Positions 3,038 through 58,344 of a DNA stretch of 64,000 bases are shown piece after piece. Location of the stretch: positions 62,001-126,000 of the forward strand of contig BDIU01000398.1 in assembly GCA_002118135.1 (NCBI GenBank), written 5' to 3'. The stretch comes from Trebouxia sp. TZW2008. Lineage: Eukaryota; Chlorophyta; Trebouxiophyceae; Trebouxiales; Trebouxiaceae. The position numbers and the translations under genes were made by a program. The notes below the pieces were generated by a model, which saw only the letters and a program-made list of their open reading frames with translations, was not told the DNA's origin and did no database searches. The first letter of the stretch is position 1. Each line of letters begins with the position of its first letter.

Positions 3038-6000
3038 TCAGTAATCGTCCCCTCTTGACAGAACCTCCTTCTTGTGAGGATGCAAATATAGGGTATGCTC
3101 AAATTGCGCCACATATGACCCTTTCTGATCACACAGCGGAGGGCACGGTGTGACAATCTGGTTGTCACACAGACTTTTCAGAGCCATTTGGTACTTTGAC
3201 TCTCCAAGTCTGTCCAAATACCTGCAGGCATGCGTTTTCGCCTTAATGCCTTTGCACCCAGATGCAGCAGTAGACATGATCCCATTGTGCCAAAGTTATG
3301 CAGCACTTGTGAGAAGAAGGGTTGTTGAGCTGTGAACACAGCTGCAAAACATCTGAAGCTGCTGCCATAGTAGCTTCAGTTTATGTCAAGGCTGCGCCCA
3401 TTAGCAGCATTTTGTTCAGTAAGCCAAAACAGTACTCCTGTCTCCTGTTGCAGAAAGCCAAACTGCCAAATTGCAGTTAATGGCAGTGCTACTGGGACCT
3501 TGTGCACAAAGCCAATATGCCAAAGTTACGGTCATGGTAGTGCTGATGTTGCCTTTTGCAGAAAGCCAACATGCCAGAGCTGCAGTCACTGACACCAAGC
3601 AGTTACCTGACCTTCGGCAGAAAGTGAACATGCTGAAGTTGCCCTTGATGGGAGTGCTCCTGTCAGCTTTTGCAGAAAGCCAAAGTGCCAAAGCTGCGGT
3701 CAATGACAGTGCGCTTGTGACCTTTCGCAGAAAGCCAAAGTGCCAAAGTTGCAGTCACTGACACCAAGCAACTGCTTGGCCTTTCGCGGAAAGTCAACAT
3801 GCCGGAGTTGCGGTCAATGGCAGTGCCACTTTGGCACATTTGCGGAAAGCAACTGTGCCAAAGTGCTTGTGTGACCTTTTGCAGAAAGCCAATGGGCCAA
3901 AATTGTGGTGAATGGCAGTGCTTCTGTTACCTTTTGCAGAAAGCCAAAGTGCCAAAGTTGCGGTCAATGACACCAAGCAACTGCTTGGCCTTGGGCAGGC
4001 GCAAGGGTACATGTCCAACACCAAAGTTCTTCATGTAGTGACTGCACTCTAAGTCCTCATTTACATAGCCTTTGCCTGCAGTCAAGTCATCAGCAATTTT
4101 GCAAGCATATATGCATGTGATTGTTATTTCAAAGGCCTATGTATTGTGGCTGCGCACAAGTCCTCATTGACATAACCCCTTGCCTGCAGTCAAATCGCCA
4201 GCATCACCACAAGCCTGCAAACACATAGCCAACACCAAGATTCTTTGCGTAGTAGCTGCTTCAGGTTGTCATATACATTGCCCTTGCCTGCAGTCATCTT
4301 GCCAGCATTATTGCAAGCATGCATGCCTAGGTTGTGGAAATTCTGACTCCAGTGTGTCAAAATTTATTTCCATGAAGGTATTGAAGAAGTACCAAAGGTT
4401 TCAATGGCAACGAAATTGCCATCTTCCATTTACACACCCTGCTCACCTCCTGTCAGCCTTGCAGCCTGGAATGGAGCACAGTGCAAGCTTTTTTGCATGG
4501 CATGAGACATTCAAGATGGCAGTGAAGTTGGGCAAGTCATTCCTATCAGTGCTGCCAAAGGTCTCAATGGCAAAGAATTGGCCTTCCTCCATGCAAGAAC
4601 CTTGACACAGGCATTACAGATAGGCAGAAAGGCCCAACCTATTGCATAAGCGAAAGCTGTGCCGTCCAATACAGCCAAAGATTTCATTGGCAAAGAATTC
4701 ACTTTATCCATTCTCACGCCCTGTTCAGCCTTGCAGCTTTGAACAGTGCATAGTCTCAAGACGCATTTCATGCAGTGAGACATAAAAGACAGCAGCGAAA
4801 AAGGACAATTTGTGCTTACCAGTGCCGCCAGAAAGCTTTCTACGGCAAAGATTTTGCCTTGCTCCATGCATGACACCGTCGACAAAGGCAGCAAGGTGCT
4901 GGCAGTGATCAAGAGGAAAGCTGTGCCTACCAGTGCTGCCAAAGGTTTCAATGGCAAAGAATTTGCCTTGCTCCATGCGCACAAGCTGCTCGCCACCCCT
5001 CAACCTTGCAGCCTTGATGAATGCACAGTGCAAATGATTTGTTCAATATGACAGTGAGACAAAGCTGTGCCTACCTGTGCTACCAAAGGTGTCAATGGCA
5101 AAGAATTTGCCTTCCTCTCAGCCTTGCAGCCTTGATAAGTGCACAGTGCAGGCAATGGTTCAAGGTGTGATTTGTTCAACATGGCAGTTAACAGGAAAAG
5201 CTACCTGTGCTGCCAAAAGTTTCAATGGCAAAGAATTCGCCTTCCTCCATGCGTACGCCCTGCTCACCACCCCTCACAACCGGCACGCTCTTGCCACCGT
5301 GAATGTTGTACGCGCCTATTGAGTGGCCGCACAGGTTTCTCACACTCTTAACCTGCACAGGCAATGCCTTGTTTGTGTGCAGGAACAGCAACAAATAGGT
5401 GTTTGACATTAGGGCGCATGACACATGTGGATGTTGTATGCGCCTATACAGTGACCACACAGGTTTCTCACACTGTTGACCTGCATGTGGACAATCAGGC
5501 TAATTTCTTGCACATACATAGCACAATGCTCATCTGCCAGGAAATCTGACAGCTCTTATGCTGATGACGGCATTTGCAAATTTAAGCATCAGGTTCAGTA
5601 TTTGAAACTGACCATTTAGCTGCTCTCAAGGCGCTTGAGGTGTCCTTTGTTGACAGTATCAAGTGACGCTGCTGTGCTGTCACTACAGACCCTCTCACTG
5701 ACTTGTGCTGTCAAAAAGCTTGCATTGAAGTGGTGACCAGGCCATGTTTGTTCTTGTTGTCACATCACTTCTAGACTGGTATTAGCTTTAGTGTTTGGCA
5801 AGCTGGGCAATAAGTGCATGATGATGTTACTGGTTCTAAAGTCGGCGCAGATGATCCTGGGTAATGGCTGAAGAGCGACTGAGTGACTGGCCAGACCTGA
5901 TGCATCTTGCCATTCAGCTCCACCTCGTATGACTCCATGACTTCCTGGATGGCTGCTCCCACATCCCCAAGACTGGCATCCACACCACTGGCCTGCACCC

Positions 6001-57346: not shown

Positions 57347-58344
57347 GGTCTACGCACCTCAGTCGTCTCAGTCCTGTCATTTCAATTTGTCCAAGCGGTA
57401 TAAGCAGTACCAATAGGGCATGTTAGGGCGGTCTTAGGTTTCATGCATCTCAACGCAACTCAGTCCTGTCACTTCGATTTGCCGAAACGGCCGAGCAGGA
57501 ACAGAAGCCTTACTTTACAGTGGCTTAGGGATCATGCATGTTTAGTCATTCAAGTCCTGTCGCATTGAGTTTGCAGCGTAAGGTTGAGGCAGAAATGGCA
57601 GGTTCTCATGGTGGTCTGCCTGCAGATGCCATGGGCTACAGCAGGCTTTCAGATTTCAATGCAGGCACGTTCAAGCCAGCTTCTCTTCCTGTTTTTGTGG
57701 TTTGTTTAGTCTAGCAGTGTGCAACACATGGTTACGTTCCTCCCAGAAAGTTATGGAAGCTCAGCTGTTGTCGCTTTTGCAGTGTTGCTGACAATTCAAA
57801 GCATGCTTCACGAGTGCTTTGACCATTGCAATGCTAAGTCAACTTTTGCAGTCATCAATGCAAAGCATGACAATGCAGAGCGACCTTACGTGCTTGCGCA
57901 GACATACTGTTCGATACCAATGCGTTGGCGCTGATGTTGCACAGAACCCAGCCCTTGACATGTTGTATGGGTCAGCTGGCGCAGCAGCGTAACGTATGGC
58001 ATGGCAAGCAGACACTGTATGCAGGCTCAATTACGTTCGCTGATTATTTCTTTCTTGATCTGGAAGCAGGATTACGATTAGATCAGCTGTTCAGGCAGGC
58101 TACCGTTGTCTGAATTTTTGCTACTAATGCCCAACAGACAGCACAGGCCAGGACTTCCATGGTCCTCAAGTAATGGACAATTGCCCTACTGGAAGCATCA
58201 TGCATCAAATTCACTAAATTGGGGAAGCCCTGCCTGTCTCGCCAAAATCAACTTGTAGGAAACAGACGGTGCGTGACAGCAACTGTGCCAACAATGTACT
58301 TGACATGAACTTGAGGTAAAAGCTTTGAAAGCTTCTCAACACGC
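57347..58344 (+). other. 3' flank of the RavA-like gene with end-exon copies
   Basis: Two roughly 95-bp copies of the last exon end plus flank (from about 57388 and 57474) follow the stop. A 45-codon open stretch, 57582-57719 (RKVEAEMAGSHGGLPADAMG...), begins after a tttgcag acceptor and may be an alternative last exon. The rest of the region shows nothing supportable. Confidence 0.4.

Follow-up and report, generated by a model that had tools for sequence, protein, structure and literature searches.

In ATP2A1, the potato RdRp gene and fission yeast, local duplication of an exon or of an exon-intron segment created a new intron or exon (PMC4974935, PMC3443670). We analyzed a stretch of 64,000 nt from one contig (BDIU01000398.1, positions 62,001 to 126,000; the window) of the 68.5-Mb Trebouxia sp. 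TZW2008 assembly, which consists of 527 contigs. Introns in the window often contained copies of the edge of the adjacent exon together with its splice site (junction copies). As in the above cases, the duplications were local, the splice sites were inherited, and the protein could stay unchanged. Unlike those cases, in which a new intron or exon arises, existing introns in Trebouxia appeared to have been lengthened, and this involved about a third to half of the introns examined.

Other described systems resembled the Trebouxia copies in part. Intron 1 of potato RdRp carries an 83-bp tandem duplication that left the gene structure unchanged (PMC4974935). This is similar in duplication length and unchanged structure, but is one isolated event without an exon-edge pattern. 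Small tandem duplications are also generated by fill-in at staggered breaks by CST and Pol alpha-primase (PMC8355091). They are likewise direct, local and short, and are a common source of short insertions. On the other hand, these insertions are less than 100 bp, whereas the spacing in Trebouxia was mostly 84-205 bp and many pairs were separated by spacers. In the relatives of Chlamydomonas, introns lack the usual length peak of 60-110 bp; according to its authors, whatever drives intron length is probably ancient, and long introns have no known advantage (PMC8226300). These are also long green algal introns, but no junction-copy mechanism is mentioned in the available part of that paper. In the Trebouxia sp. 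A48 genome paper (PMC12712428), the word 'tandem' is absent and 'intron' is mentioned once. We found no description of junction copies at such a scale in the open-access literature, subscription papers being mostly outside the search. The phenomenon is close to intron gain by tandem duplication. It differs in that introns already present grow, in its scale and spacing, and in the abundance of spaced pairs.

Trebouxia is a lichen-forming green alga, and the DNA was taken from its sequence to be Trebouxia nuclear genome. The RavA-like protein of the window was 87% identical to a protein of Trebouxia sp. C0006, and the acyl-CoA oxidase (ACOX) was 85% identical to one of Trebouxia sp. C0009. The genome of Trebouxia sp. 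A48 is 69.1 Mb with 49.7% GC (PMC12712428). Genes were predicted with an exon-chaining gene finder trained on the Trebouxia genome itself, and seven genes of the window were then fixed by hand. The exons of these curated genes were hand-picked after inspection of the data; those outside the window were called automatically. The human protein served as the check for MetAP2 and homologous proteins for ACOX and RavA, while PC4, FPG and the ViaA-like gene were checked by Pfam. In the BAR-PH-like gene, the BAR match in Pfam was below threshold and the PH part was not detected. A Rfam search and a tRNA search both gave zero matches.

The outside sample comprised 22 loci (218 kb) from nine contigs, including the window's own contig. 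Two of these loci (L013 and L014; C360:20001-40000) were excluded from the coverage totals and from the cluster and intron counts, leaving 20 loci and 198 kb, because 69-77% of their intron-called bases lay in local repeats, many of them inverted. They were kept in the exon-based edge test of window and sample, and were included in the training of the gene finder.

Edge copies were scored in the curated introns when the alignment score was at least 20 with at least 12 nt of exon. We found 65 copies of adjacent exon edges (33 donor-edge and 32 acceptor-edge) in 24 of the 47 curated introns, spanning 5,716 of 28,779 intron bases. Introns with copies were present in every gene: MetAP2 (6/8), ACOX (4/8), BAR-PH (2/5), PC4 (1/5), FPG (3/6), ViaA (3/8) and RavA (5/7). 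An earlier interpretation made from the letters of the window (the sequence-only reading) had described exon-edge copies with their splice sites in more than 20 introns of these seven genes. This was borne out; the number became 23 of 46 if the last BAR-PH exon used (32382-32572), which had no in-frame join, was dropped. The reading also held that copies of 3' exon edges lie downstream of the exon and those of 5' edges upstream. The rule stood, since copies on the wrong side were found in only 1 of 40 introns for donor edges and 1 of 40 for acceptor edges. Chance was estimated by matching exon edges to mismatched introns, and none of 1,880 such comparisons was positive for the curated genes and 3 of 1,872 for the sample.

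Searches with RavA and ACOX homologues by tblastn gave extra partial matches that fitted exon edges on the predicted side. For RavA, pieces of the 5' edge lay upstream of the exons starting at 51680, 55758 and 56519, and pieces of the 3' edge lay on the downstream side of those with ends at 51860, 55058 and 55940. Behind the exon that ends at 52648, the protein match covered an inner piece only, and the DNA match reached the edge.

Junction copies were also widespread outside the window. In the 20 sampled loci, copies were present in 54 of the 165 introns that had strong predicted exons on both sides. With the window counted as one locus, 18 of 21 loci had at least one copy-bearing intron, the exceptions being L003, L017 and L019. 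On the expected side, donor-edge copies were found in 30/165 introns and acceptor-edge copies in 33/165, compared with 5/135 and 5/135 on the wrong side. The exon-based test agreed with the side rule: donor-edge copies lay downstream of 52 of 211 exons and upstream of 13, and acceptor-edge copies lay upstream of 61 of 213 and downstream of 10. The random control in this test was 0.6% of 3,904. The junction copies are therefore real, at the claimed places and far above chance, and occur in about one third to one half of the introns examined. The sequence-only reading had called this a genome-wide habit. Wide occurrence was confirmed in the sample; the sampled DNA is about 0.4% of the genome, and 'genome-wide' is an extrapolation from it.

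The side rule follows from geometry and selection. When a duplicated unit extends over a single exon edge, one of the two copies stays joined to the exon body, and therefore a 3'-edge duplicate can sit only downstream and a 5'-edge duplicate only upstream. The rule is thus what local duplication leaves behind when the protein is preserved, and no evidence for a mechanism linked to splicing.

Self-comparison of the window gave 52 direct and 5 inverted pairs, and 50 of the 52 direct pairs were less than 1 kb apart. Outside L013/L014, the pairs within 1.5 kb summed to 250 direct versus 10 inverted. Resampled sequences gave no repeat pair in 20 x 10 kb. Basic spacing was 84-205 bp in 85 of 98 clusters and larger in 13, with a median of 143 bp, and multiples of three were not preferred. 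This replaced the 50-150 bp given as unit size by the sequence-only reading. The lower limit of spacing may be an effect of detection; the scarcity of spacing above 205 bp is not, because longer duplications are easier to see. Clusters at junctions (median 143.5, n = 68) and those in introns only (131, n = 20) showed no detectable difference in spacing (p = 0.15).

The copies decayed neutrally. Identity between exon and copy was 0.841, 0.879 and 0.751 at codon positions 1, 2 and 3, 0.772 in deep intron and 0.899 at GT/AG. If only one side changes, the predicted identity at sites fixed in the original is 1 - (1 - 0.772)/2 = 0.886. The observed 0.899 is close to this value, which indicates that the copies drift freely and that the decoy splice sites are under selection for neither loss nor retention. 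The identity classes are those expected when the exon is constrained and its copy is free to change. Selection against decoy splice sites had been expected and was not found, either in the identity classes or in site retention.

As to age, the identity of basic pairs peaked at 60-80%. Only 3 of 98 clusters were 90-95% identical, and none reached 95%. Among the 184 junction copies of window and sample, 13 were at 90-95% and 2 at 95% or more. A constant rate would yield more young pairs, so the 'ongoing' growth claimed by the sequence-only reading is poorly supported; collapse of near-identical young copies in the assembly may have hidden recent events. Its statement that decay increases away from the exon survived only as a weak tendency, the nearest copy being more alike in 31 of 48 arrays and the farthest in 17 (p ~0.06).

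In the youngest copies, i.e. the 30 of 172 whose exon-side identity was 90% or more, similarity reached a median of 73 nt into the exon and 72 nt into the intron. For all 172 copies the medians were 62 and 43 nt, and the shorter reach into the intron is as faster intron decay would give. Several copies had seemed to begin at a distance of 3-15 nt from the splice site, and anchoring at the junction was considered. The equal extension of the youngest 30 in both directions does not support it, but acceptor-edge copies were the more lopsided, and those of at least 85% identity reached less far into the intron (n = 32).

Copy-bearing introns were longer. The median was 724 bp with copies versus 412 bp without in the curated genes (p = 8e-5), and the lengths in the sample were 672 versus 422 bp. 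The proposal that introns grew by duplication across junctions agrees with the wide occurrence of copies and with this difference. On the other hand, longer introns also offer a larger target, and cause and effect are not fully separable.

We interpreted the copies as, probably, relics of short-range direct duplication acting widely in genes, of which selection kept the events that left the coding sequence (CDS) intact, and which then decayed neutrally. A stretch of DNA would be copied again in direct orientation, so that matching points of the two copies mostly lie 84-205 bp apart. This would likely occur by backward template switching or by fill-in where a replication end has broken or paused. 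A unit across one exon edge would be tolerated as long as splicing used the edge still joined to the exon body. Its counterpart would become extra intron, making the intron longer and leaving the protein unchanged. Events within an exon or covering a whole exon would mostly break the protein and be lost. The surviving copies would decay as neutral intron, with their decoy splice sites persisting.

The form of the duplication bears on how the copies arose. Plain head-to-tail tandem duplication, with spacers produced by later deletions or insertions, would account for the 46 of 98 clusters that were head-to-tail at the basic spacing. Of these, 38 were among the 51 multi-pair clusters, and several had a regular period (113 bp in ACOX, 122 in BAR-PH and 119 in PC4). 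Among the 47 two-copy clusters, 12 were adjacent (<15 bp), but in 33 the copies were separated by 15 bp or more of sequence unlike either flank; the other two were dropped from the spacer test, as their flanks lay beyond the end of the locus. Compared with the flanks, the 33 spacers gave a mean z of 0.12 against random, and 12% reached p 0.05. Unrelated spacers were present even in pairs at 91-92% identity. Plain tandem duplication by itself would not give spaced pairs, and as an explanation for the whole set it is possible but doubtful. The 'tandem' of the sequence-only reading thus suits most multi-pair clusters and only a minority of the two-copy events. Spaced copies could come from templated insertion or backward template switch, or from tandem duplication with filler. 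That the copies derive from mobile introns (introners) or transposon pieces is hardly credible. Genomes with introners typically show pieces shared among introns, but the copies here were private to their own exon, as seen in the mismatched comparisons (0/1,880 and 3/1,872), and a 551-bp piece of the ViaA-like gene, searched genome-wide, occurred once. Another reading is that the copies are functional, as alternative exons or as splicing decoys under selection. In its favor, 140 of the 169 copies with an aligned site (window and sample) kept GT/GC or AG, with 55 of 169 decoys scoring at least as high as the real site. Such retention is, however, what neutral one-sided decay gives (0.899 versus 0.886 expected). 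The codon-position pattern also fits a free copy, and 134 of 184 copies carried a non-3n indel at some point of the alignment (a count over the whole set, not a test per copy). By eye, the orthologues P0001 and P0121 have each segment once. We regard functional copies as very improbable.

The harder question was whether duplication is general or directed to junctions, where transcription or splicing (e.g. R-loops or nicks near splice sites) would create hot spots. Several results weigh against the general process. Clusters that crossed a junction numbered 68 of 98 versus 49.7 expected by random shift, and single pairs 29 of 47 versus 15.0. With placement restricted to CDS-safe positions, the numbers were 19/25 versus 11.6 in the curated genes and 48/63 versus 25.0 in the sample. 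Of the clusters with at least 80% identity, 16 of 20 crossed a junction, a proportion that the identity cut-off itself raises, because in an exon-containing pair only one partner is free to change. In a simulation, exon-containing pairs had a 1.17-fold longer detectable life if the rate was constant, and the factor became several-fold for the oldest pairs; detection bias thus falls short as the full cause of the excess. Acceptor-edge copies with at least 85% exon-side identity (n = 32) were lopsided, 0.88 of them reaching 40 nt into the exon and 0.47 into the intron. Pieces of exon middles were also copied locally (6 of 64 upstream and 3 downstream in the exon-based test), the wrong-side copies in the sample exceeded the mismatched rate, and the deep exon cores of the sample were not free of repeats (coverage 0.14), for which mis-called exons may be responsible. 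Repeats occupied 4.1% of called intergenic versus 19.3% of intron bases, the former being scarce (22.5 kb) and possibly including young transposons, so the process may not be uniform. A simulation that placed single units gave an expected junction share of 0.249 versus 0.701 observed; it was set aside, as clusters exceed one unit, in favor of the shift tests.

Repeat coverage was informative on the same question. In inner exons of the curated genes it was 0.34-0.36 over the outermost 80 nt, falling to 0.29 at 80-120 nt and to 0.0 in the 366 bases of the deeper core. In their introns it was 0.27-0.33 over the first 400 bp, 0.41 between 400 and 600 bp and 0.09 in the 352 bases farther away. In the sample it was 0.20-0.23 within 80 nt of the exon edge and 0.15 at 80-120 nt, and 0.18-0.24 in introns up to 600 bp and 0.03 beyond. 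For all clusters there was thus no peak at the exon edge in either set, although repeats were rarer outside predicted genes and more than 500-600 bp from an exon. Single pairs in the curated genes did favor junctions (0.11-0.15 within 160 bp of the edge and 0.03-0.09 beyond 200 bp), but those of the sample were nearly flat (0.03-0.05 within 200 bp and 0.02-0.03 beyond). The equal reach of the youngest copies on both sides of the junction also argues against direction to junctions, as does the longer detectability of exon-containing pairs. Introns were presumably shorter in the past, which would raise the random expectation. A special mechanism at junctions, as the sequence-only reading had suggested, is not needed for the side rule, while the 1.3- to 2-fold excess over random placement speaks for it. 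Taken together, we consider direction to junctions unlikely. A general process in genes is the likelier one, and a modest preference for junctions or genes is possible. An extended version, in which introns grow mainly by transcription- or splicing-coupled copying that starts near junctions and decoys are tolerated through strict exon definition, appears improbable; if it were true, gene expression itself would seed intron lengthening.

Short-range duplication in genes raises the question of how splicing finds the true sites. From the sequence, the sites attached to the exon would be the ones used. The decoys lie inside the true sites, which are outermost for the intron, and a preference for the shortest intron would therefore pick decoys. 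Correct splicing despite them would mean that the exon is recognized as a unit, i.e. exon definition probably takes part in the choice. GC-AG introns looked common: GC donors were seen in 4 of 47 curated introns and in 21 of 212 introns in all, the latter figure possibly inflated because the gene finder allowed GC freely. The copies also mislead gene prediction: our gene finder took several of them for exons. Separately, an ACOX model of Trebouxia sp. C0006 (P0140) departs from the ACOX sequence right after the exon equivalent to 22203-22390. It may have been misled by junction copies, the equivalent intron here having four donor-edge copies.

In MetAP2 (minus strand), the last intron (3222-3930; 709 bp, 382 bp covered; exon matched to human MetAP2) contained four donor-edge copies of exon 3931-4075, at 3430-3485, 3496-3620, 3662-3783 and 3786-3864. 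Intron 4076-5204 (1,129 bp, 651 bp covered) contained six donor-edge copies of exon 5205-5352 and two acceptor-edge copies of exon 3931-4075. Acceptor-edge copies were present at 5414-5485 (exon 5205-5352) in intron 5353-5896 and, with a 24-bp unrelated spacer, at 6082-6205 (exon 5897-6000) in intron 6001-6740. Intron 6849-7912 had one acceptor-edge copy of exon 6741-6848 at 6951-7061 and four donor-edge copies of exon 7913-8129. Three of the donor-edge copies were spaced by about 140 bp; the fourth (6996-7114) was weak and overlapped the acceptor-edge copy. Five acceptor-edge copies of exon 7913-8129, three about 185 bp apart, were found in intron 8130-9109.

In ACOX (minus strand), intron 20066-20926 had a donor-edge copy at 20756-20866 and acceptor-edge copies at 20151-20264 and 20291-20381. 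Intron 21149-22202 had two acceptor-edge copies of exon 20927-21148 and a regular array with 113-bp steps, formed by four donor-edge copies of exon 22203-22390 (78-91% identical). In intron 22391-23230 the donor-edge copy (23101-23148) covered the exon part only, and an acceptor-edge copy lay at 22533-22627. Intron 24353-24745 carried an acceptor-edge copy of exon 24030-24352 at 24541-24610.

The BAR-PH-like gene (plus strand) had four donor-edge copies of exon 29403-29528 in intron 29529-30215, with a period of about 122 bp and 95% identity in the nearest. The true donor of this intron is GC, which was kept in three of the four copies. Intron 31404-32381 contained two acceptor-edge copies of the frame-unverified exon 32382-32572. 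The copies of the tetra-PC4 gene (minus strand) all lay in intron 35189-36026, with donor-edge copies at 35731-35843 and 35848-35961 (period 119) and acceptor-edge copies at 35220-35349 and 35350-35469. In FPG (plus strand), exon 38517-38686 had an acceptor-edge copy at 38269-38320 in intron 37997-38516 and a donor-edge copy at 38769-38874 in intron 38687-39169, and intron 39302-39908 had two acceptor-edge copies of exon 39909-40089.

In the ViaA-like gene (minus strand), intron 45876-47427 contained a donor-edge copy of exon 47428-47684 at 47240-47352, 90% identical and with a 27-bp unrelated spacer. Intron 47685-48372 had a donor-edge copy at 48245-48305 and an acceptor-edge copy at 48081-48145, and intron 49443-49689 had two acceptor-edge copies of exon 49263-49442. 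In the RavA-like gene (plus strand), exon 51680-51860 had an acceptor-edge copy at 51469-51575 in intron 50828-51679 and a donor-edge copy at 51926-51995 in intron 51861-52469. Intron 52649-53656 had a donor-edge copy of exon 52470-52648 at 52751-52821. Intron 55059-55757 had four acceptor-edge copies of exon 55758-55940 and one donor-edge copy of exon 54878-55058. The next intron (55941-56518) had a donor-edge copy of exon 55758-55940 at 56062-56170 and an acceptor-edge copy of exon 56519-56704 at 56343-56418.

These last two genes (42854-57343) are arranged head-to-head about 0.5 kb apart, the ViaA-like gene (VWA) on the minus strand with a predicted start at 49931 in a low-scoring first exon, and the RavA-like gene (MoxR AAA+) on the plus strand with its start at 50441. 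Bacterial ravA and viaA form one operon, and the pair may have stayed together in the nuclear genome. The PC4 gene (34162-37288) encodes four PC4 domains and a DEK_C domain; two of its stretches, 2.5 kb apart, match at 70% over 115 bp, which parallels the local duplications within coding sequence. An open frame of 344 codons (11138-12172) had no Pfam match at E 0.01, and our impression is that it could be a decayed retroelement protein. The 10 kb around it (10001-20000) gave no local BLAST repeat pair. A stretch of repeats with a 27-bp unit (63205-63984) has long open frames on both strands. In the sample, the 20 kb of L013/L014 (G000:C360:20001-40000) contained 36 inverted and 60 direct pairs, unlike the other 20 loci, and is perhaps a transposon nest or a satellite region.

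With 55 of 169 decoys scoring at least as high as the true site, these introns offer a natural test of splice-site choice. A junction copy is also a neutral marker of duplication whose source is still present, so that rates, sizes and breakpoints become directly measurable. For Trebouxia, the copies point to a source, still visible in the sequence, of the long introns of a compact green algal genome; the Chlamydomonas comparison had left this point open (PMC8226300).

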